A stretch of 64,000 bases of DNA from Mycobacteroides salmoniphilum (GTDB taxonomy: Bacteria > Actinomycetota > Actinomycetes > Mycobacteriales > Mycobacteriaceae), in the NCBI RefSeq assembly GCF_004924335.1, contig NZ_CP024633.1, positions 558,001 to 622,000 of the forward strand. The letters are read 5' to 3'. Under the pieces are notes generated by a model. That model saw only the letters and a program-made list of their open reading frames with translations, did not search any database and was not told the DNA's origin. The translations under genes were made by a program, and so were the position numbers. Positions within the stretch are counted from its first letter, which is position 1. Each line of letters starts with the position of its first letter. Positions 6,119-19,806 of this stretch are shown here, piece after piece.

Positions 6119-6211
6119 CCGTTTTTGACTCGGTGCGCCGAGTGGGAAACTGGCGTGGGAAACTGGCTCGATTCTCTCGTGAGATTCCCACTCGGCTTGC
6201 GGTGCTGAGGT

Positions 6212-7222
6212 TTACACCGGTGCTGGGGCGATGACTCCTCCGGTGAGGCGCCGGTAGGTGTAGACGTGGATCAGCGCCGTGAGGGCTAGCTGCATCGGCA
6301 CGGCCACGATTCCGGCCAGGCCGCACGAGACCGATGTCGCCATGCTCGCGACGAAGCTGATCGCATAGGTGATGAGATACACCAGGAAGACCGGCCCCAG
6401 ATTGTTCTTGACGATCTGGAAACTCGCCTTGAGTGCATCGACCGGGCCCAGCCCGCGATCGACGGTGAAGAACACCGCGTACTGCGCGAAGAAGGCGAAG
6501 ATAAGGCCCGGAATGATGAGAAGGACGAATCCGACCACTGTGCCGAGCGCTACCAGCAGTGCGGTGCCGACAAAGGCGCCAAAGCTCCGGGCACGGAAAA
6601 ACGAGCCAAAGGTCACGGGCTTACCGTCGGCGATGTCGAGATTGGCCGTCGTGATGGATGCGGCCATATAGAGCCCGACCGCGGCGATTGCGATTCCGAG
6701 GATGACCATCAACACGGTTGACCCCGCCCCGAGGCCCGAAGAGCTCTCGTAGGAGTACGACATGGAGTCCTCGTCGTACGTGCCGGGGCCGGTGGCCGCC
6801 ACCATGGCCGCTATGAAGACGAAGTACACGATGGCGAATGGCACCGCGATGGCGAGGAACCACACGATGTAGGGCGGGATGAAGGTTCCAAAGCGCTTGG
6901 TGACGTGGGCCCACGCCCAGTTCCACGACTCACCGGCGTTGAACGGTCCCTGCGGTGGCCATGGCGCCTGCGGCGGGTAGCCGTATCCGGCCGGCGGGTA
7001 TCCGGGGGGTGGCGGCGGGAACTGTGCGCCCGGGTACTGGGGGGCTCCCGGGGGAGGGCCCGCTTGGTATCCGGGCTGGTATCCGGGCGGTGGGGGTGGC
7101 TGGTATCCCGGGGGCGGCTGAACCGGGTAACCCGGAGGAGGCTGATATCCCGGGGGCGGCTGATTCGGGTCGTGCGCTGAGGGATCGCCCGCTGCGGGCG
7201 GCTCCTGAGGTGGGTAAGTCAC
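6212..7222 (-). CDS. Proline/glycine/tyrosine-rich membrane protein
   Basis: This 336-residue protein has a cytosolic N-terminus of about 100 residues built from degenerate PPPGY(Q/P) repeats. A conserved-looking W-x-W segment follows, then about five to six hydrophobic segments. It resembles mycobacterial Pro/Gly-rich transmembrane proteins of unknown function. The repeats could bind WW- or SH3-like partners or pack on the membrane; that is speculation. The coding DNA at about 7030-7170 is correspondingly repetitive. It converges on groEL2. Confidence 0.8.
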   Translation of the reverse strand: MTYPPQEPPAAGDPSAHDPNQPPPGYQPPPGYPVQPPPGYQPPPPPGYQPGYQAGPPPGAPQYPGAQFPPPPPGYPPAGYGYPPQAPWPPQGPFNAGESWNWAWAHVTKRFGTFIPPYIVWFLAIAVPFAIVYFVFIAAMVAATGPGTYDEDSMSYSYESSSGLGAGSTVLMVILGIAIAAVGLYMAASITTANLDIADGKPVTFGSFFRARSFGAFVGTALLVALGTVVGFVLLIIPGLIFAFFAQYAVFFTVDRGLGPVDALKASFQIVKNNLGPVFLVYLITYAISFVASMATSVSCGLAGIVAVPMQLALTALIHVYTYRRLTGGVIAPAPV

Positions 7223-7551
7223 CGACTTAGGCTAGCAACGAACGTGTTTGCTGAGCGCGATATGGGCGTGATGTCCGAAGGCGTGTTCCGGTAGCGGGTT
7301 TCACGCGTCAGGACGGTTCTGCGGGCTGGCGTTGCGTGGTAGTCGGCCGTCGGCCGCAGGGCCCTCGACCGATGACTTAGGTGACTGTCCGTGACAGGCG
7401 TGATGTCGACCACTAATCCCGTTGTTTTCCAACGATTTACCTATCGGCCGGAAATGACTCCTCAAGACTCGGGAACTTTTCGTGTGCCCGGCTCGACTGC
7501 TCCATTAGTCGCGCATCAGGTGGCCAGATCAGCGAGAAGAGTAGGGAGTCG
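7223..7551 (+). promoter_or_regulatory. Upstream control region of the isonitrile-lipopeptide-type operon
   Basis: This 329-base region has no gene. It lies between divergent genes and must hold the promoter of the operon starting at 7552. Visible symmetry: AGCAA-N9-TTGCT (7234-7252), a perfect CTGTC-CGT-GACAG palindrome (7385-7397), CGTTG-N5-CAACG (7420-7434) and CGAT-N6-ATCG (7433-7446). The last three, 105-170 bases before the first ATG, are candidate operators. No A/T-rich Zur- or Fur-like box was seen. Function is inferred from position. Confidence 0.5.
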
Positions 7552-8421
7552 ATGACGCTCAACGTGAAGGGCGAGGGATTGGGGGCACAAGTCACGGGGA
7601 TTGACCCCGGGAACTTGGACGGAATCACCACGCAGGAGATCCGCGAACTCGTCTACCGGAACAAGCTGGTCATCCTCAAGGATGTGCATCCCTCACCCGA
7701 GGAGTTCATCCGGCTTGGGAGATTGATCGGGGAGATAGTTCCCTACTACGAGCCCGTGTATCACCACGAGGATCACCCAGAGATCTTCGTCTCGTCTACC
7801 GAAGAGGGACAAGGGGTTCCACGGACCGGCGCATTCTGGCACGTCGACTACATGTTCATGCCGAAACCTTTTGCGTTCTCCATGGTGGTGCCGCTGGCGG
7901 TTCCCGGGCGTGATCGCGGGACTTATTTCATCGATCTCAACAAGGTTTGGGAGTCGCTTTCCGGCACGATAAAAGACTCTGTGCGTGGGACATTCAGCAC
8001 GCATACACCGCGGCGTTACATCAAGATCCGCCCGAGTGATGTCTACCGGCCCATCGGAGAGATCCTGGCCGAGATCGAGAGAGTCACGCCCCCACAGAAA
8101 TGGCCGACGGTGATCAAACACCCGAAGACCGGGGAAGAGATCCTCTACATCTGTGAGGCGGGTACCGAGACGATCGAGGACGGGGATGGAACTCTCCTCG
8201 ACGCTGCGCTCCTGCAGCAGCTACTCGAAGAGTCGGGGCAGCTCGACCCCGACTACGCATCGCCGTTTATTCACGCCCAGCACTATGAGGTTGGGGATAT
8301 CGTGTTGTGGGACAACCGTTCTCTGGTCCATCGTGCAAAACATGGAACGGCATCGGGCACGCTGACGACCCACCGTCTGACCATGTTGGATGGTCTCGAG
8401 ACGCCCGGATTCGCGGCGTGA
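7552..8421 (+). CDS. Fe(II)/2-oxoglutarate oxygenase, isonitrile-forming type (ScoE/MmaE, Rv0097-like)
   Basis: A 289-residue TauD/TfdA-fold protein. Visible iron ligands are H97-x-D99 (in WHVDYM) and H260 (in SLVHRA); R275 is placed to bind 2-oxoglutarate. In the characterised Streptomyces sco and M. marinum mma clusters the equivalent enzyme oxidises and decarboxylates the glycine-derived N-carboxymethyl group on a beta-amino fatty acid to make an isonitrile. It is first in the operon, with AGGGAG just before the ATG, and overlaps the next gene by 4 bases. The whole gene set makes this assignment much stronger than taurine catabolism. Confidence 0.88.
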   Translation: MTLNVKGEGLGAQVTGIDPGNLDGITTQEIRELVYRNKLVILKDVHPSPEEFIRLGRLIGEIVPYYEPVYHHEDHPEIFVSSTEEGQGVPRTGAFWHVDYMFMPKPFAFSMVVPLAVPGRDRGTYFIDLNKVWESLSGTIKDSVRGTFSTHTPRRYIKIRPSDVYRPIGEILAEIERVTPPQKWPTVIKHPKTGEEILYICEAGTETIEDGDGTLLDAALLQQLLEESGQLDPDYASPFIHAQHYEVGDIVLWDNRSLVHRAKHGTASGTLTTHRLTMLDGLETPGFAA

Positions 8422-8972
8422 GCGCTGTCGCGGCAACCCTGTCCGTGCAGACCGGGCTGCCCTCCACCGGAATGGCCCCGATCGCCGAGGATCTGCTCAG
8501 CAGGGTGCTCGAACCGTATTCATACAAGGGCTGCCGCTACCTGACCGATGCCGAATATGGAATCACCTCCGACGCGGTGCACGCTCAGGGCAACTTCGCG
8601 ATCAACGAGTCCGCCTATATCCGCAGTACCGGGCACTTCAACGCGGTGGAGTTGGTACTGTGCTTTAACCAGCTGGCCTACAGCGCCTTCGCTCAAGGTG
8701 TTATCAACGATGACATCTGGGCATTCCGTGGCTGGTCGATTGACGATTACTGCCGGAACCAACTCGCCGGCATGTTGATCAAGAGCACCTCGTCGCGGTT
8801 CCGGCGGCTGGTCAACGCACAGCAGTTCTCCGCCCGCCTGCAGGCCCGTAATTTCCATATCGTCGACCGGTCGTGGCGTTACCTGCAGTTCCACAGCACC
8901 ATCGAATTCTGGGATCAGGACGGAGGATCCGCGGCCGGTGAGTTCGAGATCGCGGTCCTGAACATCCCGTAG
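8418..8972 (+). CDS. fcoT: FcoT-type acyl thioesterase (ScoD/MmaD, Rv0098-like)
   Basis: Start is GTG at 8418, inside the preceding stop (GTGA overlap), giving 184 residues, close to the 183 of M. tuberculosis FcoT. An open frame extends further upstream but that part only shadows the oxygenase gene. FcoT is a hotdog-fold enzyme first described as a long-chain acyl-CoA thioesterase. In isonitrile lipopeptide pathways its orthologue handles addition of glycine to an enoyl-ACP and release of the product. Translational coupling to the oxygenase supports a shared pathway. Confidence 0.88.
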   Translation: MSAVAATLSVQTGLPSTGMAPIAEDLLSRVLEPYSYKGCRYLTDAEYGITSDAVHAQGNFAINESAYIRSTGHFNAVELVLCFNQLAYSAFAQGVINDDIWAFRGWSIDDYCRNQLAGMLIKSTSSRFRRLVNAQQFSARLQARNFHIVDRSWRYLQFHSTIEFWDQDGGSAAGEFEIAVLNIP

Positions 8973-9001
8973 CCCACGACAGGAAGCGCACCCCCACCGT
9001 C

Positions 9002-10516
9002 ATGTCTCAATCGCCGCCCACTGTGTGGGAACGGATCTTCGAACAGGCCCGCCTGCGACCTGGGCTCATCGCACTGCGCCGCAGTGATGGTGCCGGTGCG
9101 GTGACGTATGGCGAGCTCGCTTCCGGAGTCGAAAAGCTTGCTGCGACACTTCGTGCCGCGTCGGTCACTCGGGGGTCCCGCGTGATGATCCTTTCGGATA
9201 ACGGTCCACAGACGTATCTTTCGGTACTGGCGTGCGCACGGCTCGGAGCCATCGCCGTCATGGTCGACAACGCCCTGCCCCCGGCAGCCGTCGCGCGGTT
9301 CCGCGAGATAACGGACCCCGCCGCGATCGTTCCGCATGCGGCGGACGAGGCCGACGCGGTGCGTTCCTCGGGTATCGAAATAGACTGGCTGGCAGTACAA
9401 CCCGAAGGCTATGCCGACGAACCGCTCGCCATGATCTTCACCAGCGGCACGACGGGTGAACCGAAGGCTGTGCTGCTGCCCAACCGCACGTTCTTCGCAG
9501 TCCCCGACATCCTGCGCGAGGAGGGACTGAGCTGGATCGACTGGGTGGCAGGGGAGACGACCTACTCACCGCTGCCCGCGACCCATATTGGTGGGCTCTG
9601 GTGGATTCTCAACGGGCTGATGCACGGCGCGTCGTGTGTCACCGGCGGTGAGGGCGGGGTATCGCTGAGGGAGCTGCTTGCCGGTAACGAGGTGGCCACC
9701 GCGTGTCTGGTGCCCACCCTCATGACCAGATTGGTATCCGAGCTCAAGCTCACCGGAGCCCACGTGCCCTCGCTACGATTCATCGCGTATGGCGGCTCGC
9801 GGGCGATTCCGGCCGATGTGCAGTTCATCGAAGCAGCGGGGGTGCGAACAGCCCAGGTCTACGGACTAAGTGAAACAGGCTGTACCGCACTGTGTCTGCC
9901 GACCGATGACGAGTCGATCGCCAGGATCGAGGAAGGCGCCGTCGGGCGTCCCTATCCAGGGGTGCAGACCTTCTTGTCGGATGGCGAGAGCGGCGGCCCG
10001 ACACACGGCGGTGTGTCCGCGTCGTACGGCACGCTGTGGATCAAGTCGCCGGCCAACATGCTGGGGTATTGGGGAAATCCCGATCGCACCCGCGAGGTGC
10101 TGGCCGACGGATGGGTGAACACCGGTGACCTGGTGGAGCGTCGTGACGATGGATTCTTCTACATCAGGGGCCGCTCCTCGGAGATGATCATCTCCGGAGG
10201 GGTCAATGTGGTGCCCGACGAGGTTGACCGGATTGCCGAAAATGTTGCGGGCGTGGGCGAAGCGGCATGCTACGAAATACCGGACGAGGAGTTCGGTGCG
10301 CTCGTCGGGTTGGCGGTGGTACCCACCGCACAGCTCGATGGGCCAGGCACGGCCGAGCTCAAGCAGCGGATCGCGGCGAAGTATCGGCAGGAATCGGAAT
10401 CGATGGCCAGGCCGTCGATCATCGCCGTTGTCGAGGACATCCCCCGGACGCAGTCCGGCAAGGTCATGCGATCGTCCTTGGCGGCCACGCTCACCGGGGC
10501 GCCGACCGGTGCCTGA
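9002..10516 (+). CDS. fadD10: Fatty acyl-AMP/ACP ligase, FadD10-type (ScoC/MmaC, Rv0099-like)
   Basis: A 504-residue ANL-superfamily enzyme. Motifs in order: MIFTSGTTGEPKAV (about 143-156), YGLSE (about 287), GDLVERRDDGFFYIRGR (about 374) and the C-terminal lysine K487 in RTQSGKVMR. FadD10 enzymes activate a fatty acid as acyl-AMP and pass it to a dedicated carrier protein rather than CoA. That matches the ACP gene that overlaps its 3' end by 8 bases. Its role would be to load, and later reload, the lipid chain. A weak AGGAAG lies upstream of the ATG. Confidence 0.88.
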   Translation: MSQSPPTVWERIFEQARLRPGLIALRRSDGAGAVTYGELASGVEKLAATLRAASVTRGSRVMILSDNGPQTYLSVLACARLGAIAVMVDNALPPAAVARFREITDPAAIVPHAADEADAVRSSGIEIDWLAVQPEGYADEPLAMIFTSGTTGEPKAVLLPNRTFFAVPDILREEGLSWIDWVAGETTYSPLPATHIGGLWWILNGLMHGASCVTGGEGGVSLRELLAGNEVATACLVPTLMTRLVSELKLTGAHVPSLRFIAYGGSRAIPADVQFIEAAGVRTAQVYGLSETGCTALCLPTDDESIARIEEGAVGRPYPGVQTFLSDGESGGPTHGGVSASYGTLWIKSPANMLGYWGNPDRTREVLADGWVNTGDLVERRDDGFFYIRGRSSEMIISGGVNVVPDEVDRIAENVAGVGEAACYEIPDEEFGALVGLAVVPTAQLDGPGTAELKQRIAAKYRQESESMARPSIIAVVEDIPRTQSGKVMRSSLAATLTGAPTGA

Positions 10517-10760
10517 AACCACAAGAAGCCGGATCCTGGCGGCAGTCTGTGACGTGCTGTACATCTCGGAGTCGGAGCTCTTCGACGGTGAGGCCACTGA
10601 TCTGCGGGAGTTGGGACTCGACTCGGTGCGTTTCGTGCTGTTGATGAAGCAGCTGGGTGTGACTCGCGGTTCGGAGCTGCAGAAGCGTTTGGTCTCAGAC
10701 CTTTCCATCGCCGGATGGGCTCAGGCACTGGAGCAGGCACAGCCCGAGGGCGTCACATGA
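10509..10760 (+). CDS. Acyl carrier protein (ScoB/MmaB, Rv0100-like)
   Basis: An 83-residue carrier protein beginning at GTG 10509, which overlaps the ligase end. The phosphopantetheine site is Ser39 in ELGLDSVRF. A longer open frame upstream is only the ligase read in another frame. It should hold the fatty acyl chain for glycine addition and isonitrile formation. Its stop overlaps the NRPS start (ATGA), so the two are translationally coupled. Confidence 0.88.
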   Translation: MPETTRSRILAAVCDVLYISESELFDGEATDLRELGLDSVRFVLLMKQLGVTRGSELQKRLVSDLSIAGWAQALEQAQPEGVT

Positions 10761-13700
10761 CGTTGGCGGTGGAACCGCGCGTGGACCGGGTGCCGTTGAG
10801 CAGGTCACAGCAGAACATGTACAACGGCGCGTTACAGGCCGATGATCCCGGGTTGTATCTCATCGGGAAGAGTTATCGGCTTCATCCGATCGAGCTGCCC
10901 GTGTTCCTGTCCGCGCTGGAGGGAGCAATAGCCGTCAACCCGCTGCAGCTCTGTGTCCTCGGACCAGTGCGGGAAGGCGCGCACTATCCAGAACTGATGC
11001 GGAGCTTGCATTTCAGTGACATCGTGACGGTGGCTTCGGAGCGGGAGGAGCCGATAACGCGGGCCGCCGGCGAGCTGGTGCATATGTGGTCCACGGACCT
11101 CGCCGCCAAGCCGCTCGTGCGGTATACCGTCCGCACAGGTGCCGGCGGACAGGTGGTGGGGCTCGAGATCCACGCGCATCATCTCCTACTCGATGGCGGC
11201 GCTATCGGGGTGATAGAAGCCGACCTCGGACGTCGTCTAGCCGGTACTTCGGAATTCGGAGCACCCTGTGCGAGTGCAGCACTGGCGAAGATCGCGGCGG
11301 CGCACGGTCTTGAGGCCGTCAAAGCCGAGGAGTCGCTGCAACGTTTCGGCCCGGCAATCCAGTGCGAGCTCACCGACGCGTCACGACATGGAGGGCACGG
11401 GTTCAGTCCTGGCGACGAGTCGGCGGGCGCGGCCAGAGGTGAGCTGCAGGAATCGGTAACGCTATCCGGCAAGGCCTTCGACGCGATCGAAGCGCTGTCC
11501 GAGGCCAAGCAGGTGCCGTTGAACATTCTGGCGGCGGCGGCTTCGCTTGCGGTGGAAGCAAGTCTGCGACAGAGCACCTCGACACTGCTGATTCATGCGG
11601 TGGACAACAGGTTCGGGGAACCCGATCTGAACGTCGCAACGTGCCTGGTCAACTCCATCGCGCATCCGGTCCGGTTCCCTGCTTTTGCTTCTGTGCGCGA
11701 TGTCGTAGAGGCACTTGATCGCGACTATGTCAGAGCCTCACGGCGCCGGTGGCTTCGTGAGGAGCAATATCGCCGAATGTATCTGGCTATCAACAAGACA
11801 TCGCATGTCGAGGCGCTGACCTTCAACTTCATCCGGGAGACCTGCGCACCCGCCCTACGCCCATTTTTGTCGGCCGCACCGCATGCGACGGATATCGGTC
11901 CCGTGGAGGGCAGGACCGTGTCGTGCGTGATGGACGAGGATCGGCGCACTCTCACCGTGTCTATCTGGCACCGCGCGGACCAGGAGGGTGCAACCACGCA
12001 TCCGTGGATCGCCGAGCGGATCGCGGCGGCACTGGGATCGATGGAAGCCATGTGGGACTTGCCGATTGCCATGACCGTGAACGAGTGGTTTGGGATCGGT
12101 GCCGACGGTACTCGTCGCCGGGGAGATGACTGCACGCAGACCGAGCCCGCTGCGGCACCCGCCTGGTTCCTGGACACCGAAGGCGGTGTGCAGCGGTTCC
12201 TGCAGAGGCGACGATTCGTCGAGCCCTGGATCGCCTGGCTGGTCGCCAGTGGTATCGCACCGGGCGACATCGTGGTGTGCGTCGACGATGACACTGACAA
12301 GACCGTGGATCTTCTGATCGCCTGCCACCTCGCCGGCTGTGGGTACAGCGTGTGTGACAGTGCGAAAGATGCCTCCCTGCGCGCCGATTCGATTGTCGAG
12401 CACGGCGGCGTCGCGGTGCGTGTGGTCGATACTGCGGCCCCGATCCCGTTAGAGCTGGAAAGTCCGATGCGTGACCTCGTGGACGAGCGCATCGAGGAGG
12501 TGGCGCGGGACACTGCGCTCACGATGAGGACGGCGTACATCATGGCGACTTCAGGGTCGACCGGTCAGCCCAAACTCGTCCCGGTCACCCACGGCGCACT
12601 TGCTCTGTTCGCCCGTGCTGCCGGACATGCCTATGGCTGGGGTGCGCAGGACAGCATTCTCCAATGTGCGCCGTTGACCTCGGATATCAGCGTCGAGGAG
12701 ATCTTCGGTGCGGCGGTTTGCGGAGCACAGCTGCTCCGTTCCGCGGCAATGAAATCCGGAGATCTGGGTGCCCTCGTACGGGACATCCGGGAGCTGAGGC
12801 CCACCCTGATCGACCTGCCGACGGCTGTGTGGCATCTGCTGTGTGAGGACGCCGAGGCCTTGGCCGTGATCGATGCCTCCGATCTGCGTCAGGTGGTCGT
12901 TGGCGGTGAAGGCGTTCGGTCCGGCGCAGTAGACAAGTGGGTGGAGGTCGTGGGGGCTCAGTCTGTCTCACTCGTCTCGAGCTACGGACCGACCGAAACG
13001 ACGGTCGTCGTGACGTACCTGCCCATCGATGGGGAGTCGCAGGGCGATGGTTCAGAGCGGCTTCGGGTGGGTCTGCCGGTCATGCCCAACACCGTCTATG
13101 TCGCGTTTGGGGAAATCGTCGTCATCGGAGACACCGTGTCGGCGGGGTACCTCGGGACACCGGGCGAGAGCTTCGGCGTGGTCGGCTCCGCCGACGGCGC
13201 GCCTAGGCGGGCATTCGCGACCGCCGACCGCGTGGTGTTCGACGAGGACGGATTTCCCACCTTCGCCGGACGCCGCGATGCGATCGTGAAGATCTCCGGT
13301 AAGCGGATCGACACCGCGTCAGTGATCCGCCGCATATCCGAGGACCCGGCAATCATCGATGTCGGTGTGGGGTTGCACAGTGGTGCACTGGTGGTCTGGT
13401 TTCAGGCCCATAAGGACCTGGACGACAACAAAATAGCGGCGCGGATCAGACGTCTTCTCGTGGACCTCGGGGTCTCCTCGTTCTTCGTGGTGAGTGTGTC
13501 GGGCATCCCCCGTAAGCCGAACGGCAAGATTGACCACGACAGCCTGCTGACCATGCCGCAGTTTGTGAACGCAGTGCCCGATGAGACAGAGACCGTAGAA
13601 ACTGCCGCGGGTCTAGCGCGTGTCTGGAGTCGGTGCCTCGGGCGGGAGATCGGTGCGGAGTCGTCGCTGCTTGCCGAGGGAATTGGCTCGCTCGATCTGA

Positions 13701-14926
13701 TCAGAATGCTGCCGGACACTCGGCGGTATCTCGGACGCCAACTCTCGGTACTGGATCTGATCAGTGCCGATAGCGCCGCTTACCTTGCCGCGGCCGGCGC
13801 GGCAGGCGTCGAGCTCGGTGCCGTCGACACCGCAATCGATATCGGCGCGGACCTCGAGCGGTTGACGGCAGCTCCCCGCGTCACAACACTGCGCCGCAAC
13901 AACTCACAGGTCAGTGAGGACGGACCGATCATCGTGTTGGGTGCGTCGGGGATCGTCGGTACCGGGTTTGGTCGAGCCACGCTCGACCTGAAACGCCGCG
14001 GTGCGCTTGGCCCCGACGTCGTGTTGGTGACGAGATCGGAGCTGCCCGATTCCGGACCGTGGCCCGCTCTGCGCGGCGTCGGTGGCGTCAGGGTCCGGCA
14101 TGCCGAGCCCGGGTTCGGCCCGGAAGCACTGGACACACTGCTGGGCGAGACGGGGGCTCGCACCCTGGTCAACTGCATCGGGAACACCAACATGCTGGCT
14201 CCCTATCGCGATATCCGGGATGCCAACGTGGAGTGGGTATCCGCGGCCGTGGAAGGGTGCGCGGGGCACGGCACCCGGTTGATCCACATGTCGACATTCG
14301 TGGTCAATGCGGAGGCCGCCGCCGCACGCGTCACCGATCCACGTGAAGCCCTCTATCCGTACGCGGCATCCAAGGCACTGGCCGAACTGGTGGTCGCGGC
14401 ATCGCCGCTCGGGCTTGACTTCACGCTCGCGCGGCTGCCCCGGGTGCTCGGAGAGGCAAGTCAATTGGTTGACGGCACCGATGTGCTGGTGTCGATCGTT
14501 GACGCATGTCTTGCGCTGCAAGCCTTTCCCTGCGTCACGCTGATCGAAGAGGTGACCACGGGAAGCGCCGCGGCGATGTCCATTCTTGGGCTGGCCGGAG
14601 ATGCGTCGACGCTCGGCCGGGGAATCACCGTGGTGCGTGGCAGGAGCGTTCCCTACGCCGAGTTTCTCGGAGGGTACGGCCTCGAGGAACTGGAGCTGCG
14701 TGCATGGAAACGCGTGCTGGACCTCAGCGATTGGGCTAGGCGAAACCCACGGAGATGGTCGGTGATCGATGCCTGGGCGGGACTCGGGATGCGACTGGGC
14801 GCGCAGACCTACGCGGAACATCTCGCCGGATATCCGACCATCCCCCTTGATGCCGCGCCGGTAACCGAGCTCCCCGCGATACCGGAGTCGATCCGAGATC
14901 TGCTTGTGCAGGGACGTTCTCAATGA
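10757..14926 (+). CDS. nrp: Single-module NRPS, C-A-T-R (ScoA/MmaA, Nrp-like)
   Basis: Start is ATG 10757, overlapping the ACP stop; 1389 residues. Domains: condensation (about 1-440, HHLLLDG at 141-147), adenylation (about 460-930, A3 SGSTGQPK near 595, A5 SYGPTETT, A10 PRKPNGKID), thiolation with Ser978 in GIGSLDL, and a terminal NAD(P)H reductase (about 1057-1380; GASGIVG and Y1202-x3-K1206). The A4 segment SDISVEE suggests an acidic pocket, compatible with a basic amino acid such as lysine. Known homologues acylate both amines of lysine and release the product reductively. M. tuberculosis Nrp has two modules; this one has a single module. Confidence 0.9.
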   Translation: MTLAVEPRVDRVPLSRSQQNMYNGALQADDPGLYLIGKSYRLHPIELPVFLSALEGAIAVNPLQLCVLGPVREGAHYPELMRSLHFSDIVTVASEREEPITRAAGELVHMWSTDLAAKPLVRYTVRTGAGGQVVGLEIHAHHLLLDGGAIGVIEADLGRRLAGTSEFGAPCASAALAKIAAAHGLEAVKAEESLQRFGPAIQCELTDASRHGGHGFSPGDESAGAARGELQESVTLSGKAFDAIEALSEAKQVPLNILAAAASLAVEASLRQSTSTLLIHAVDNRFGEPDLNVATCLVNSIAHPVRFPAFASVRDVVEALDRDYVRASRRRWLREEQYRRMYLAINKTSHVEALTFNFIRETCAPALRPFLSAAPHATDIGPVEGRTVSCVMDEDRRTLTVSIWHRADQEGATTHPWIAERIAAALGSMEAMWDLPIAMTVNEWFGIGADGTRRRGDDCTQTEPAAAPAWFLDTEGGVQRFLQRRRFVEPWIAWLVASGIAPGDIVVCVDDDTDKTVDLLIACHLAGCGYSVCDSAKDASLRADSIVEHGGVAVRVVDTAAPIPLELESPMRDLVDERIEEVARDTALTMRTAYIMATSGSTGQPKLVPVTHGALALFARAAGHAYGWGAQDSILQCAPLTSDISVEEIFGAAVCGAQLLRSAAMKSGDLGALVRDIRELRPTLIDLPTAVWHLLCEDAEALAVIDASDLRQVVVGGEGVRSGAVDKWVEVVGAQSVSLVSSYGPTETTVVVTYLPIDGESQGDGSERLRVGLPVMPNTVYVAFGEIVVIGDTVSAGYLGTPGESFGVVGSADGAPRRAFATADRVVFDEDGFPTFAGRRDAIVKISGKRIDTASVIRRISEDPAIIDVGVGLHSGALVVWFQAHKDLDDNKIAARIRRLLVDLGVSSFFVVSVSGIPRKPNGKIDHDSLLTMPQFVNAVPDETETVETAAGLARVWSRCLGREIGAESSLLAEGIGSLDLIRMLPDTRRYLGRQLSVLDLISADSAAYLAAAGAAGVELGAVDTAIDIGADLERLTAAPRVTTLRRNNSQVSEDGPIIVLGASGIVGTGFGRATLDLKRRGALGPDVVLVTRSELPDSGPWPALRGVGGVRVRHAEPGFGPEALDTLLGETGARTLVNCIGNTNMLAPYRDIRDANVEWVSAAVEGCAGHGTRLIHMSTFVVNAEAAAARVTDPREALYPYAASKALAELVVAASPLGLDFTLARLPRVLGEASQLVDGTDVLVSIVDACLALQAFPCVTLIEEVTTGSAAAMSILGLAGDASTLGRGITVVRGRSVPYAEFLGGYGLEELELRAWKRVLDLSDWARRNPRRWSVIDAWAGLGMRLGAQTYAEHLAGYPTIPLDAAPVTELPAIPESIRDLLVQGRSQ

Positions 14927-14957
14927 CCGAAACACACCCAGAGGAGGAGAACTTGCC

Positions 14958-15266
14958 ATGATCCTGAACGTCGTTCCCGAGGGACTGGCCGCCGCCAGTG
15001 CCGCGGTGGAGGCTTTGACCGCGCGGCTTGCCGCCGTACATACCGCTGCCGCGCCGGTGATTAGCGCGGTGGTGCCGCCGGCGGCCGACCCGGTATCCAT
15101 CCAGAGCGCCTTGGCATTCAGCGCCCACGGCATCGAGCGCAACGCTGCCGCGGTCGGCGCCGTCTATGAGCTGGGCCGGGCCGGCGTCGGAGTCACCGAG
15201 GCGGCCACGAGTTACACGGTCGGCGATATGCAGGCTGCCGCAACGTATATGCCGGGAATCGCGTAG
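14958..15266 (+). CDS. PE family protein (PE5/PE15-like)
   Basis: A 102-residue protein with Pro-Glu at residues 7-8 and the all-helical PE sequence of the short PE5/PE15 type from ESX-3 loci. There is no C-terminal extension. GAGGAGGAGA lies 7 bases before the ATG. It begins 31 bases after the NRPS stop with no terminator between, so it may share that transcript. PE proteins pair with PPE proteins and are exported by type VII systems; the likely partner is the PPE at 17206. Confidence 0.9.
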   Translation: MILNVVPEGLAAASAAVEALTARLAAVHTAAAPVISAVVPPAADPVSIQSALAFSAHGIERNAAAVGAVYELGRAGVGVTEAATSYTVGDMQAAATYMPGIA

Positions 15267-15305
15267 TTCCCGGAACAATCCACACGATGACAGAGAGGTA
15301 GTTTC

Positions 15306-15599
15306 ATGAGTTTGCTTGATGCACATATTCCGGCTTTGGTGGCCGCTGAGGGCACTTTCGGTGCCAAGACCGCGTTGATGCGTTCGACGATTTCGCAGGC
15401 CGAGCAGGCCGCGATGTCGGCGCAGGCCTTCCATGTCGGTGAGTCTTCGGTGGCTTTCCAGGCCGCGCACGCCCGGTTCGTGGAAGTGGCCGCCAAGGTC
15501 AACGCGCTGCTCGATATCGCCCAGATCAACCTCGGTGATGCCGCCGCCACCTACGTGGCCGAGGACGCCGCCGCCGCCAGCCGCTACATCGGCGTCTAA
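15306..15599 (+). CDS. EsxG-like WXG100 protein
   Basis: A 97-residue helical hairpin protein whose sequence (MSLLDAHIPALV start, QAEQAAMSAQAFH turn, HARFVEVAAKVN helix) is plainly EsxG-like. The turn reads HVGESS rather than WXG, as is normal for EsxG. It forms a heterodimer with EsxH. It lies 39 bases after PE and 21 bases before the EsxH-like gene, but no ESX secretion machinery is nearby, so export probably depends on an ESX-3 locus elsewhere. Confidence 0.92.
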   Translation: MSLLDAHIPALVAAEGTFGAKTALMRSTISQAEQAAMSAQAFHVGESSVAFQAAHARFVEVAAKVNALLDIAQINLGDAAATYVAEDAAAASRYIGV

Positions 15600-15620
15600 G
15601 ACCAAGGGAGAAACACAAAA

Positions 15621-15911
15621 ATGTCGCAGATCACGTTCAACTACCCCGCGATGCTCGCCCACGCCGGCGAGATGAACACCTACTCCGGTGTGCTGACCGC
15701 CCTGGGCGCCGACCTGGCCGCCCAGCAGGCCTCCCTGCAGGCCGTCTGGCACGGCGATACCTCCATGAGCCAAGCCGCCTGGCAAGCCCAATGGAACACC
15801 GCCATGGAAGAACTCATCCGCGCCTACCGCGCCATGGGCACCACTCACGAAACCAACACCCTGTCCATGAACGCCCGCGACATGGCCGAAGGAGCCAAAT
15901 GGGGCGCATAA
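15621..15911 (+). CDS. EsxH-like WXG100 protein with altered metal site
   Basis: A 96-residue EsxH-family protein, WHG as its WXG turn (42-45 region) and the C-terminal KWG signature. From memory, the zinc site of M. tuberculosis EsxH uses H14, H70, H76 and E77. Here H14, H76 and E77 are kept, but position 70 is arginine, and an extra histidine (H44) sits in the turn. It pairs with the EsxG-like protein upstream. In M. tuberculosis the secreted EsxG-EsxH pair supports metal homeostasis and hinders host ESCRT function. Confidence 0.92.
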
Positions 15912-15979
15912 ACGCCGTGTCGTGGAGGCCCCGTGCCTCTAAATCTGTTGTGAGTCAATATTTCAGGAGGAAACACGAT

Positions 15980-16204
15980 ATGTCCGAGCAGATCTTCGCC
16001 ATCAGCGGGATGCACTGCAACTCGTGCGTCATGGGAGTGACGGAGGCGCTGACCGCACTCGACCCGGTGCACGAGGTGTCCGTTGACCTGGACCCCAAGG
16101 GTGCCTCGACGGTACGCGTTCTGTCAGACAGTGTGCTGTCGGTGGAAGAAGTTCACGACACGCTTGTGCGGGCCGGTGGTGATTTCGCCGTCGCTGCCGG
16201 ATAG
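15980..16204 (+). CDS. HMA-domain copper chaperone-like protein (CopZ/Atx1 type)
   Basis: A 74-residue stand-alone heavy-metal-associated domain with GMHCNSC (C13, C16), the M-x-C-x2-C metal loop that binds Cu(I) in CopZ-like proteins. AGGAGG lies 9 bases before the ATG. It follows the EsxH-like gene by 68 bases with only a small hairpin (15925-15939) between and no copper ATPase or CsoR nearby. Its place at the end of an isonitrile-lipopeptide/Esx gene run suggests handling of metal delivered by that system. That is inference. Confidence 0.88.
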   Translation: MSEQIFAISGMHCNSCVMGVTEALTALDPVHEVSVDLDPKGASTVRVLSDSVLSVEEVHDTLVRAGGDFAVAAG

Positions 16205-16231
16205 CGGGTTTCAGTCGAAAGTTCCGGTATC

Positions 16232-17038
16232 TCAGCCAAACTCGATCACGGTGTGCGGTGCGCGCAGCCGGTCGAGGCCGGGCAGCGCATACAGTAGCGG
16301 GCCGGCCCAGCGGAGTACCTTGCCGCGCCCGGCCGGCATCCGCAGCTCACGGACGCTGTGGATGCCGGGGATGGCGCGCAGTTCTCGGTACTGATTTGCA
16401 GTGAACGAGAAGGGCATTGGGGGCACGGTGTACTGCTCGCTGAGTCTCATCCCGCGTTGCGAGTGTGTGCTAAGGAATTTCGGCACGGAATCGAAGATCA
16501 GCCAGCCGCCGGGAAAACGCTTGGCACACTCGGTGATCAGGTCGAACACCGGCTCGCGCTCCAGGTACTGGAAGAGGCCCTCGGCGGTGATCAGCACGCC
16601 GCCGGAGCCGTCGACCTGATCCATCCACGAATAGTCGAGCGCGGATTGAGCGCAGTGGCGCAACCGGTCCGATTGCGGGAGAAGCTGCTTGCGCAGCCGC
16701 ACGATGGGCTCCAGGTCCACCGACGTCCAGGTGAGCTCGCCGTTGTCGACGCGCCAGAAGCTCGTCTGCAATCCCTCAGCCAAGGCCACCACGCTCGCGC
16801 GCGGGTGCCCCGTCAGGTACTCCCGCGTGGCCGTGTCGAATATCAAAGCGCGCAAGGCGGTAGCTTGATGTGTGCGCCCGAAATGCTGAAAATCATAGTC
16901 AAGGCCGGCGTGCAGTGCGATGGCCATCGGGTCGTCAATGATGCCGTCCGGCCGGGCCGCCTCGGTCGCGCGTTGATGCAGCGTGAGCAGTGCGGTCTCG
17001 GACACGCCGTCGAGGTGTCGAGCATCGATGACTGGCAT
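16232..17038 (-). CDS. SAM-dependent methyltransferase, LCMT/TcmP family
   Basis: A 268-residue member of the leucine carboxyl methyltransferase-like family (COG3315). The SAM motif reads VVALAEGLQTSFWRVD, a variant of the usual LGxGLDTR form; TAEGLFQYL follows near residue 150, and there is an EFG end. These enzymes O-methylate carboxyl or hydroxyl groups in polyketide-like pathways. It points against the surrounding genes, so it is probably transcribed alone. Whether it modifies the neighbouring lipopeptide is unknown. Confidence 0.82.
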   Translation of the reverse strand: MPVIDARHLDGVSETALLTLHQRATEAARPDGIIDDPMAIALHAGLDYDFQHFGRTHQATALRALIFDTATREYLTGHPRASVVALAEGLQTSFWRVDNGELTWTSVDLEPIVRLRKQLLPQSDRLRHCAQSALDYSWMDQVDGSGGVLITAEGLFQYLEREPVFDLITECAKRFPGGWLIFDSVPKFLSTHSQRGMRLSEQYTVPPMPFSFTANQYRELRAIPGIHSVRELRMPAGRGKVLRWAGPLLYALPGLDRLRAPHTVIEFG

Positions 17039-17205
17039 GCGCCCGACTGTACGGGACGGTTACGGCACGTGGGAATTCCTGGCGCGCAACGATACATGTG
17101 ATTTCGTACGCTGATTCTGATTGTGCGGGAACTTTCTTGCGCAGGGTCCGACTACTCCCATGGAGACGTGAAACCGTTTGCGTCCATTCAGCAGGGAGGC
17201 GGCGG

Positions 17206-18615
17206 GTGACGGCACCGATATGGATGGCGGAGCCGCCGGAGGTGCATTCGGCGCTGTTGAGTTCGGGGCCGGGTCCGGGTGCGGTGCTCGCTGCCGCCAT
17301 GCAGTGGCAAGAGATCGCGGACAACTATGCGCGCACGGCGGTCGAGCTGACCCAGGTCTTGGCCGGCGTTCAGGCAAGCAGTTGGCAGGGGCCGAGTGCC
17401 GCGGAGTATGTGGCCGCCCACGGGCCGTACCTGGCCTGGCTCGAGCAGGCCGCTGTCGAGAGCGCTGTCATTGCCACGCAACACGAAACGGCCGCGGCGG
17501 CCTATGGTGGTGCGCTGGCGGCCATGCCCACGCTTGCGGAGCTGGCCATCAACCACGTCACGCACGGGGTGCTGGTCGGCACGAACTTCTTTGGAATCAA
17601 CACCATCCCGATCACGCTGAACGAAGCCGACTATGTCCGCATGTGGGTGCAGGCGGCCGCCACCATGAGCACCTATCAGGCGACCACTGAGGCCATGACG
17701 TCGGCGATACCGCCGACCCAGCAGGCGCCTCCGATTCTCGGGCCCGGCGGCGAGGCCCGCAGTGACCAATCGGATGTCCCGGGTTCCCCCGACCAGATCA
17801 TGAAGATGCTGCAGGGCTTTCAGCAGTGGTTCGAGAAGATGGGCTTCAACCCGGCGACCTCGGCCGTGCTCGCTGTGATCATGCTCTTCCTCTATGACCT
17901 GCTCTGGTACCCGTATTACGCCTCATACCTGCTGCCGTTTCTCATCCCTGCCCTCAGTGGGCTGAGCGGTTTGGCGGCACTGGTACACCTTCGGCCCACT
18001 CCGGCAGTGGTTCCGGCTCCGGCGGTGACACCCTCTGCGGACAGACCAGCCCTGAGGGCCGTGCACCGCCCGGAGGTGAGCGTGGCGGCTGTACCCCTGC
18101 CTGCCATGTCCGCTGCGCCTTCGGGAGGTGCGTCGCCGGCCACTCCGGCGCCGAGCGCGACTACCCCGGCTCCGTCCGCCCCTCCTGCATCGATGAGCGG
18201 GATCACTTATGCCATACCCGGTTTGGTGCCGCCCGGGGTGAGCTTTGGCCCCAAGGGCACGGCGAAATCGTCGGAATCTGCCGTCGGGACCATCGACGCC
18301 GCCGCGGCGGCAACTGTTACGGCGATGGCTCCGGTCCGGCGCAGACAGCGCAGCAAGAGCAAGGCCCGCATCGGCGGCCAACGCTACGAATACCTGGAAG
18401 AAACAGCCGGTATGGGCGCAACGGCCGGGTACTCCACCGAGGCTGGCGAGCACGCTGCGACCGGTAGAGGTGCCGGCCCGCTGGGATTCGCGGGCACCGC
18501 GCCCGCCGCGACCAGTACGCAGACCGCCAGAGCGGTCAGACTCGGATCAGATGACACCCGGCAGGTGGTTCCGATGCTCCCGAGTACCTGGGAAACGGAC
18601 AACGCGGAACAGTGA
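17206..18615 (+). CDS. PPE family protein, PPW subfamily
   Basis: Start is GTG 17206, 6 bases after GGGAGG; 469 residues. The N-terminus (WMAEPPE, then SSWQGPSA and a FFGINTIPITLNEADY segment) matches PPE4-like ESX-3-associated proteins. A hydrophobic stretch at about 225-265, an Ala/Pro-rich linker, and a C-terminal RYEYLEE...GFAGT...PMLPSTW region follow. The PxxPxxW end is the mark of the PPE-PPW subfamily. It is the likely partner of the PE protein at 14958. It is separated from it by the opposing methyltransferase. Confidence 0.9.
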   Translation: MTAPIWMAEPPEVHSALLSSGPGPGAVLAAAMQWQEIADNYARTAVELTQVLAGVQASSWQGPSAAEYVAAHGPYLAWLEQAAVESAVIATQHETAAAAYGGALAAMPTLAELAINHVTHGVLVGTNFFGINTIPITLNEADYVRMWVQAAATMSTYQATTEAMTSAIPPTQQAPPILGPGGEARSDQSDVPGSPDQIMKMLQGFQQWFEKMGFNPATSAVLAVIMLFLYDLLWYPYYASYLLPFLIPALSGLSGLAALVHLRPTPAVVPAPAVTPSADRPALRAVHRPEVSVAAVPLPAMSAAPSGGASPATPAPSATTPAPSAPPASMSGITYAIPGLVPPGVSFGPKGTAKSSESAVGTIDAAAAATVTAMAPVRRRQRSKSKARIGGQRYEYLEETAGMGATAGYSTEAGEHAATGRGAGPLGFAGTAPAATSTQTARAVRLGSDDTRQVVPMLPSTWETDNAEQ

Positions 18616-18768
18616 TAGCCACTCTACCTGTGTTTATAAGCAAAACTTTGGGGCTGCCCACGGATTGGTCACTACTCATGGGCGTCTTTGCACAGAACAA
18701 TCGAAGACAGTCGCCGGGAGCATCAGCGGTGGCGTTCCTAGATTTTCCACGCAGAGAAGGGCAGCACA

Positions 18769-19806
18769 GTGAGCGAGTACGGATGGACAGTGGTCGGCGC
18801 GGGCCCCGCAGGCATTGCGGCAGTGGGGAAGCTCCTCGACCACGGAGTGCCATCCGGCGCGATCGCCTGGATCGACCCTGAGTTCGCCGCGGGTGACTTT
18901 GGCACGAAATGGCGTGCCGTGCCGAGCAATACGTCGGTGAAGCTTTTCATCAACTACCTCACGGGCGCGCAATCCTTCCGATTCGCCCATGCACCACATT
19001 TCGCGCTGAACGACCTGGCGCCCACGGATACCTGTCTGCTCGGGGAGGTGGCGGACCCGCTGGTGTGGATCACCGGGCAGCTCTGTGACCAAGTGCGTGC
19101 TCTGCGCACCACCGCGACGGGTCTGTCACTGCAGGGCGGCCGGTGGACCGTGCGGACCGAAATGGGCGATATCACTTCGAAGAACGTGATCCTCGCGGTC
19201 GGTTCGGTTCCTAAGACGCTCGATTACCCGTGGTTGAACGAGATCCCGATCGAGACGGCACTCAATCCCGAGAAGCTCGCCGCGCAGCCGCTGGAGGGGG
19301 CCACTGTTGCCGTCTTCGGCGCGTCACACTCGAGCATGATCGCCTTGCCCAACTTGCTGGCCGGGCCGGCGGCCAAGGTGATCAACTTTTATCGTGGCCC
19401 ACTGCGCTATGCGGTCGACATGGGGGACTGGACGCTGTTCGACGACACCGGCCTGAAGGGCGAGGCCGCACGGTGGGCGCGGGAGAACATCGACGGCGTG
19501 CTGCCGGACCGGTTGCAGCGCTGCCTCGTTGACAGCCCTGAATACGCTGAGCTGCTCCAAAGCTGCGATTACGCGGTGTACACCGTGGGGTTCAGTCCGA
19601 GGCCGATACCCGCTGCCCCGCAGTGGGGGCACCTGGAGTGCAATGCCGCCACCGGGATCATCGCTCCCGGTCTGTTTGGGGCCGGAATTGCCTTCCCCGA
19701 GTATCGGATTGACCCGATGGGCTTCGGTGAACACCGCGTGGGACTGCAGAAGTTCATGGACCGCCTCAACAAGGTGGTGCCGTTATGGCTGAAGTACGGC
19801 TCGTGA
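18769..19806 (+). CDS. FAD-dependent NAD(P)-binding oxidoreductase
   Basis: A 345-residue flavoprotein with an N-terminal VVGAGPAGIAA dinucleotide motif and a second Rossmann-like segment (VAVFGASHSS, about residue 185). A C-terminal TVGFSPRP/GIIAPGLFGAG segment binds flavin. No redox CxxC pair is seen, so it is not a classical disulfide reductase; a monooxygenase or lysine/ornithine-hydroxylase-like role is possible. It starts at a GTG and runs into the DUF202 gene. Confidence 0.72.
   Translation: MSEYGWTVVGAGPAGIAAVGKLLDHGVPSGAIAWIDPEFAAGDFGTKWRAVPSNTSVKLFINYLTGAQSFRFAHAPHFALNDLAPTDTCLLGEVADPLVWITGQLCDQVRALRTTATGLSLQGGRWTVRTEMGDITSKNVILAVGSVPKTLDYPWLNEIPIETALNPEKLAAQPLEGATVAVFGASHSSMIALPNLLAGPAAKVINFYRGPLRYAVDMGDWTLFDDTGLKGEAARWARENIDGVLPDRLQRCLVDSPEYAELLQSCDYAVYTVGFSPRPIPAAPQWGHLECNAATGIIAPGLFGAGIAFPEYRIDPMGFGEHRVGLQKFMDRLNKVVPLWLKYGS

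Follow-up and report, generated by a model that had tools for sequence, protein, structure and literature searches.

The stretch of DNA analysed here (the window) comprises 64,000 nucleotides of Mycobacteroides salmoniphilum, positions 558001-622000 of a single-contig genome of 4.78 Mb, and it carries an isonitrile-lipopeptide gene cluster in which genes for ESX-3-type PE and Esx proteins are embedded. Nine plus-strand genes follow one another, encoding a ScoE-type oxygenase, FcoT, FadD10, an acyl carrier protein (ACP), a nonribosomal peptide synthetase (NRPS), a PE protein, EsxG, EsxH and a small HMA-domain protein (Table 1). A first-pass annotation, made from the sequence alone, had listed these nine genes as a possible operon; Pfam and NCBIfam models recover all of them with the order and span that it gave, and measurement confirmed each gap, i.e. 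29 bases for FcoT-FadD10, 31 for NRPS-PE, 39 for PE-EsxG, 21 for EsxG-EsxH and 68 for EsxH-HMA, the remaining junctions being overlaps. It missed two genes which also belong to the unit: a minus-strand methyltransferase gene and, divergent from it, a PPE gene that by sequence comparison is read as PPE1 with an ESX-3-type head. The identity of ScoE is 98-99% with that of Mycobacterium sp. D16Q13, D16Q14 and D16R12, and 90-91% with that of M. chelonae S00154 and M. franklinii CV002; together with the identity of SigC (see below), this places the genome in the M. abscessus-chelonae group.

Some domains fall near or below the thresholds of their family models. FcoT scores 126.7 bits against the NCBIfam ScoD model (cut-off 250). 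In the NRPS the carrier domain reaches 18.7 bits with Pfam PP-binding, just below the cut-off of 20.8, and the condensation domain has no Pfam match, yet its HAHHLLLDG motif is visible; the NRPS most likely starts within an ATGA overlap with the ACP gene. EsxH is above the Pfam WXG100 cut-off and EsxG, at 23.0 bits, is below it (27.3). Each gene between 7552 and 19806 is assigned by Pfam or NCBIfam to a family other than the Ecc/MycP machinery, and an Rfam scan of 6200-18700 gave no match.

Table 1. Features of the cluster and its borders, in window positions.
Feature	Position	Strand	Support or remark
Promoter-like motif GGGAACTTT-N-CGAC, predicted SigC type	7471..7497	+	ends 54 bases before ScoE
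ScoE-type isonitrile-forming oxygenase/decarboxylase	7552..8421	+	NCBIfam NF049937 ScoE equivalog, 480 bits (cut-off 400); Pfam TauD
FcoT (ScoD-like) thioesterase-fold enzyme; start codon uncertain	8385..8972	+	Pfam FcoT, 195.6 bits
FadD10 acyl-AMP ligase	9002..10516	+	NCBIfam NF004515 equivalog, 888 bits (cut-off 726)
Acyl carrier protein; start codon inferred	10509..10760	+	Pfam PP-binding, 32.1 bits (cut-off 20.8)
One-module NRPS with terminal reductase domain; start codon inferred	10757..14926	+	Pfam AMP-binding and NAD_binding_4 above cut-off
NRPS-PE junction, 31 bases, purine-rich ribosome site AGGAGGAG	14927..14957	.	same length in 11/11 Mycobacteroides loci
PE protein, PE5 (ESX-3) type	14958..15266	+	Pfam PE; best PDB match 6UUJ PE5 chain
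EsxG	15306..15599	+	protein identical to ESX-3 EsxG of the same genome
EsxH	15621..15911	+	protein identical to ESX-3 EsxH of the same genome
Stand-alone 74-residue HMA metallochaperone-like protein, GMHCNSC	15980..16204	+	Pfam HMA
LCM/TIGR00027-type methyltransferase, divergent from adjoining PPE1	16232..17038	-	Pfam LCM
Second SigC-type motif	17127..17152	+	ends 53 bases before PPE1
PPE1 orthologue, PPE4-type N-terminal domain; start codon inferred	17206..18615	+	Pfam PPE, PPE-PPW
FAD/NAD-binding oxidoreductase-like gene	18769..19806	+	Pfam matches below cut-off

A search of 198 genomes drawn from the genus detected ScoE in 46 (E up to 1e-60). The 45 loci besides the window, together with 55 named ones, left 11 loci in Mycobacteroides, counting the window, and 66 outside it once 24 repeats had been removed; counts that refer to the NRPS exclude three of the 66, which have no NRPS match (L094, L107, L137), and in L117 260 bases are available behind the NRPS. 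All seven complete Mycobacteroides loci (the window, L023, L024, L026, L087, L089, L133) have the order ScoE-FcoT-FadD10-ACP-NRPS-PE-EsxG-EsxH-HMA, followed by the methyltransferase on the minus strand and the PPE, and the NRPS of the other six is 72-86% identical to that of the window. The contigs of the remaining four (L021, L022, L025, L090) stop before or inside esxG and agree up to there; for three of them a separate contig, starting behind or inside the esxGH repeat, bears the HMA, methyltransferase and PPE genes. A chance neighbourhood was rejected on the NRPS-PE gap, which is constant in all 11 loci, and an assembly artefact on the agreement of four single-contig genomes and of seven complete loci overall.

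The closest known system is the mycobacterial nrp chalkophore cluster (Rv0096-Rv0101 type; PPE1-ScoE-FcoT-FadD10-ACP-NRPS), with which the window shares the five biosynthetic genes in the same order, PPE1, and a SigC-type motif before PPE1 (defined below) that is common to many other loci. It differs in that PPE1 and the divergent methyltransferase lie behind the cluster and not in front, that PE-EsxG-EsxH-HMA stand between NRPS and methyltransferase, and that the operon begins at ScoE with a SigC-type motif of its own, a feature that 11 of the 66 other loci share in the 300 bases preceding ScoE. Outside Mycobacteroides the PPE is immediately upstream of ScoE in 62 of 66 loci, and in 56 of the 66 the methyltransferase is found no more than 6 kb upstream of the cluster; none of the 63 loci with an NRPS (one of them with 260 bases there) has PE, EsxG, EsxH, methyltransferase or PPE downstream of it, as judged by tblastn of the fetched stretches with the window proteins (E up to 1e-3), a search that a distant PE could escape. 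The upstream order is also present in Segniliparus rugosus (L091), outside Mycobacterium, and is therefore likely to be the ancestral one, barring horizontal transfer of the cluster. Since PE/EsxGH accompany the cluster in 0 of 62 loci outside Mycobacteroides and in 7 of 7 complete loci inside, their link with the chalkophore is specific to this one lineage. The first-pass annotation had named separation of the two halves in most relatives as evidence against a link; for PE/EsxGH such a separation is found outside Mycobacteroides and not within it.

A motif defined as GGGAACT(A/T)T, 12-16 bases and CGAC occurs twice in the window, where none is expected, namely before ScoE and before PPE1. The whole genome holds 5 such sites against 2 for the reversed control, and seven Mycobacteroides genomes hold 41 against 5, with sites before ScoE and PPE1 in all seven. 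The motif precedes ScoE in 11 of 11 Mycobacteroides loci, and before PPE1 it is exact in six of the seven methyltransferase-PPE regions of the genus, the seventh being one base off. Among the other loci it lies in the first 330 bases of 33 of 53 methyltransferase-PPE regions; in five further loci, four of them without a methyltransferase there, it stands just before the PPE. The genome encodes a SigC equivalog (256 bits, cut-off 219) that is 95% identical to Mycobacteroides-named proteins; no sigma gene was found near cobK in this genome, and SigC was identified by the family model instead; a first candidate (L170) was rejected. Of 63 other loci, 23 have a sigC gene in the stretch fetched, often beside a long HMA-domain reading frame resembling a P-type ATPase. 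In M. tuberculosis ppe1-nrp and ctpB are reported to be raised on SigC induction and sigC to be required in copper-poor medium (PMC7924339); in M. bovis BCG, SigC is reported to bind near ppe1-nrp and ctpB, whose predicted elements are almost identical (PMC7924339; PMC9147137). Because of these published data, the SigC equivalog in the genome and the sigC genes near other loci, both motifs are predicted to be SigC promoters. In some loci outside Mycobacteroides, HMA and PepSY-like genes stand between the cluster and sigC (e.g. L105:17494-20060).

Further sites of this type were observed elsewhere in the genomes. One precedes an open reading frame of 25 residues (MRDIAVEIVVEDDEIVTATEMVASH here), which shows few changes across seven of seven Mycobacteroides genomes (L146:986-2514, i.e. 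G000:C1:943985-945513, where G000 is the present genome; L214-L220); behind it lies a protein with a weak cupin match, present in those seven genomes and in a single further one of the 198 (37% identity). Together they resemble a ribosomal-peptide system that would share the predicted SigC control and might provide another copper binder. Another site, with one base varying over 27, is shared by six of the seven genomes (L148:1591-8144, i.e. G000:C1:4551590-4558143, minus strand), and in this genome it is followed by genes for LuxE, NifU-like and NifS-like proteins, an FtsX/MacB permease, an ABC ATPase, a carrier protein and an acyl-AMP ligase, which make up a sulfur-handling biosynthetic cluster and may also respond to copper starvation. 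Five of the seven genomes have a site of the form GGGAACTATTGC...CGAC (L147:7736-7762; similar in G088, G190, G169 and G050); in this genome it overlaps the start of a gene resembling, by eye, methylthioadenosine phosphorylase.

The junctions of the window bear on whether the motif before ScoE could serve the downstream genes too. Besides the constant length of the NRPS-PE gap, its purine-rich ribosome site reads AGGAGGAG in 8 of the 11 distinct Mycobacteroides loci; the other gaps in the genus range from 31 to 40 bases for PE-EsxG (nine loci), 18 to 33 for EsxG-EsxH and 57 to 68 for EsxH-HMA (seven loci). No SigC-type motif is present from NRPS to HMA, or to the contig end, in any of the 11 loci. 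Taken together, these comparisons support the shared transcript that the first-pass annotation had proposed. PE-EsxG-EsxH-HMA might instead be read from a promoter inside the NRPS gene in response to a different signal; motif scans cannot exclude promoters inside long genes, and the sigma-70 scan covered one promoter type from position 14600. We consider such a second transcript very unlikely, given the lack of SigC-type motifs in this interval, of any sigma-70-like site at 14600-17300 and, allowing 3 mismatches, of an IdeR-type box anywhere in the window. No such box was found in the third esxGH copy (described below) or in the ESX-3 stretch either, although the latter may stop short of the esx-3 promoter.

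The PE and PPE proteins both match the same solved ESX-3 complex. The best PDB match of the PE is PE5 (6UUJ, chain A, E 6e-30; the next is at 1e-4), and that of the PPE is the PPE4 chain of the same complex (E 3e-64; the next PPE at 5e-20). Compared over its full length with the PPE found upstream of ScoE elsewhere, the PPE of the window gives 240-400 bits (median 328, n=60), and with the PPE4 of its own genome 245 bits. It is read as PPE1 because of these scores and of the adjoining methyltransferase; the assignment relies on scores and synteny rather than on a tree of the PPE N-terminal domain, in which bootstrap was unsettled and which lacked 13 of 34 PPE1 loci (window included), five of the seven from Mycobacteroides being among those missing, as well as two of the genome's six other PPEs. 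PPE1 lies 2.3 kb behind the NRPS gene and is not the first gene of the operon. There are five PE and eight PPE matches in the genome, and only the PE of the window has no adjoining PPE, its nearest being PPE1. The canonical ESX-3 block PE5-PPE4-EsxG-EsxH is similar to the window in its PE5-type PE and its identical EsxG and EsxH proteins; in the window there is no PPE between PE and EsxG, nor are Ecc, EspG or MycP present.

Related proteins have been described in other species. M. marinum and M. tuberculosis both require PPE1 to grow when copper is low; that it acts in chalkophore transport is a guess of the authors (PMC9600254). In M. abscessus the PE protein MAB_0664 and EsxH2 (MAB_0666) are secreted through ESX-3 (PMC11791044); from gene order and description alone, MAB_0664, EsxG2 and EsxH2 are apparent orthologues of PE, EsxG and EsxH of the window. 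In what we have of that report they are treated as extra ESX-3 substrates encoded outside esx-3 and are not placed in a chalkophore cluster.

The genome contains three esxGH copies, i.e. that of the window (15306-15911), one in the ESX-3 locus (G000:C1:1969817-1970422) and a third (G000:C1:41570-42183) in a PE-PPE-EsxG-EsxH block near 41 kb, far from the cluster. All three encode identical proteins, and the DNA of the window copy is 99% identical to the ESX-3 copy and 97% identical to the third. Only 0-3 of 110 four-fold sites differ among the copies of this genome (3 of 110 against ESX-3), compared with 9-36 of 107-113 among the copies within three other genomes and 15-40 of 106-112 for the same locus between species. 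In the esxGH tree the three copies cluster by genome in G000 (63/94, not firm) and in G050 (100/99); in G088 the nrp and third copies pair (94/96), and the ESX-3 copies are set apart in both G092 and G088. From these four-fold differences and the grouping by genome, the copies are likely kept alike by gene conversion, which is partial in two genomes. Several draft assemblies break beside or inside esxGH copies.

Such near-identity is what would be expected if PE-EsxG-EsxH were a spare block that rides behind the chalkophore genes, supplying an extra generic ESX-3 substrate on a shared transcript with no role in copper. The third copy, which has its own PE and PPE, and the 62 other chalkophore loci that do without the block also speak for a passenger of this kind. 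On the other hand, all Mycobacteroides loci seen retain the arrangement and its constant 31-base junction, the PE of the window is alone among the five in lacking an adjoining PPE and has PPE1 nearest, and PPE1 and HMA genes adjoin the cluster in other mycobacteria too. On balance we regard the passenger explanation as unlikely, though it keeps appreciable weight.

The HMA protein of the window resembles the CopZ/Atx1-type metallochaperones in its single HMA domain and CxxC metal motif; unlike them, it is below every NCBIfam CopZ cut-off (best 37 bits, cut-off 91). It is the sole stand-alone HMA protein of the genome, a second HMA match lying in a frame of 730 codons. Its identity is 93-99% in the six other complete Mycobacteroides loci and 85-99% in three drafts, and a database search returned 7 close clusters, of which the three bearing organism names are from the abscessus-chelonae group. 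Elsewhere an HMA gene, mostly of about 110-130 residues, stands directly behind the NRPS in 33 of 62 loci; a form of 71-75 residues, 42-49% identical to that of the window, is found on the minus strand 1.4-6.4 kb downstream in ten other loci, which include relatives of M. gordonae, M. asiaticum and M. szulgai. By these comparisons the neighbourhood of HMA and chalkophore genes is widespread.

The first-pass annotation had left the metal as copper or zinc. A zinc metallophore, similar to kupyaphore and with ESX-3 partners acting in zinc homeostasis, would agree with the view of one group, reported in PMC9600254, that zinc is the metal of the M. tuberculosis product, and with the ESX-3 genes included in the M. 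tuberculosis Zur regulon (PMC10470581; PMC3796483). The M. tuberculosis cluster, however, is reported to respond to copper and not to zinc limitation, and mutants of M. tuberculosis and M. marinum fail in low copper and not in low zinc (PMC9600254); the SigC-type motifs and the GMHCNSC sequence of the HMA protein also point to copper. From this published work on relatives zinc is less likely than copper, and we hold the zinc model to be very unlikely for the window. The wider suggestion of that annotation, a metallophore with exported or metal-handling partners, gains support and becomes more precise, as the cluster has ties to PPE1, HMA genes and SigC in other mycobacteria as well.

We give about an even chance to the reading of the locus as a rearranged chalkophore cluster of the M. 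abscessus-chelonae group, in which a copper-binding lipopeptide is made together with a predicted PE-PPE1 pair that, delivered via ESX-3, would carry the lipopeptide across the outer membrane. Copper starvation would activate SigC, which would read the motifs before ScoE and PPE1. By what is known of their families, ScoE, FcoT, FadD10, ACP and NRPS would produce a diisonitrile lipopeptide, and read-through would yield PE, EsxG, EsxH and the HMA protein too. As the match with the solved PE5-PPE4 complex suggests, PE would pair with PPE1 and EspG3 would guide the pair to ESX-3, with EsxG-EsxH as a possible co-secreted substrate while iron is plentiful and the esx-3 locus turned down. For PPE1 we adopt the guess, made by the authors of the low-copper work, that it acts in chalkophore transport; copper arriving in the cytosol would be taken up by the HMA protein. 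The layout, its conservation, the motifs and the homologies are direct observations, from which the transcript, SigC control, the pairing, export, transport and the metal are deduced. In M. abscessus biofilm the isonitrile lipopeptide genes are reported to be induced, the product not being detectable (PMC8586431).

Several observations weigh against this reading. PE5-type PE and EsxGH are missing, by tblastn, beside the cluster in the 62 other loci, and the clusters of M. tuberculosis and M. marinum, where PPE1 works, are described without them in what is available of the report (PMC9600254). Besides PPE1, the genome has three PPE4-like PPE genes with either no adjacent PE or a PE of their own, so that PE need not pair with PPE1. 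As the EsxG and EsxH proteins do not differ from those of ESX-3, nothing points to a copper-specific Esx function. The strict motif is missing from the first 330 bases of 20 of the 53 other methyltransferase-PPE regions, and the SigC assignment draws on a motif defined here and on a paper's statement, not on published promoter letters. The EsxH-HMA gap holds a single weak terminator-like hairpin (15923-15941), no more than chance would give since shuffles average 1.6. No HMA gene is directly behind the NRPS in 29 of 62 other loci, and 9 of 63, including Segniliparus, have none in the fetched stretch; moreover the HMA of the window is nearer to the minus-strand form of the ten loci than to the one that follows the NRPS, which leaves its descent unsettled.

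A broader idea, plausible but put forward only tentatively, is that in Mycobacteroides ESX-3 may act as a metal-switchable exporter: mycobactin and iron would be served by substrates of the esx-3 locus, chalkophore and copper by SigC-driven PE, PPE1 and EsxG2-EsxH2, with gene conversion keeping the EsxGH proteins alike. If the copper reading is true, protein secretion would be tied to copper uptake and copper would join the metals tied to ESX-3; the locus bears on the passage of chalkophores through the mycobacterial outer membrane and on which secretion system delivers PPE1. The parts are known; what appears to be new is their combination, the relocation of PPE1 and the presence of an ESX-3 substrate set inside a copper cluster. 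The arrangement is not described in the titles and opening parts of abstracts on the M. abscessus chalkophore, chalkophore and ESX-3, EsxG and isonitrile, or PPE1, copper and type VII secretion.

At the downstream border, the oxidoreductase-like gene is 88-96% identical among Mycobacteroides and adjoins every locus of the genus whose contig extends that far. Finally, in three of the other loci (L037, L055, L059) a second ScoE-FcoT-FadD10 set, inverted and 34-53% identical, lies downstream, 8.8-12.5 kb from where the first ScoE starts.

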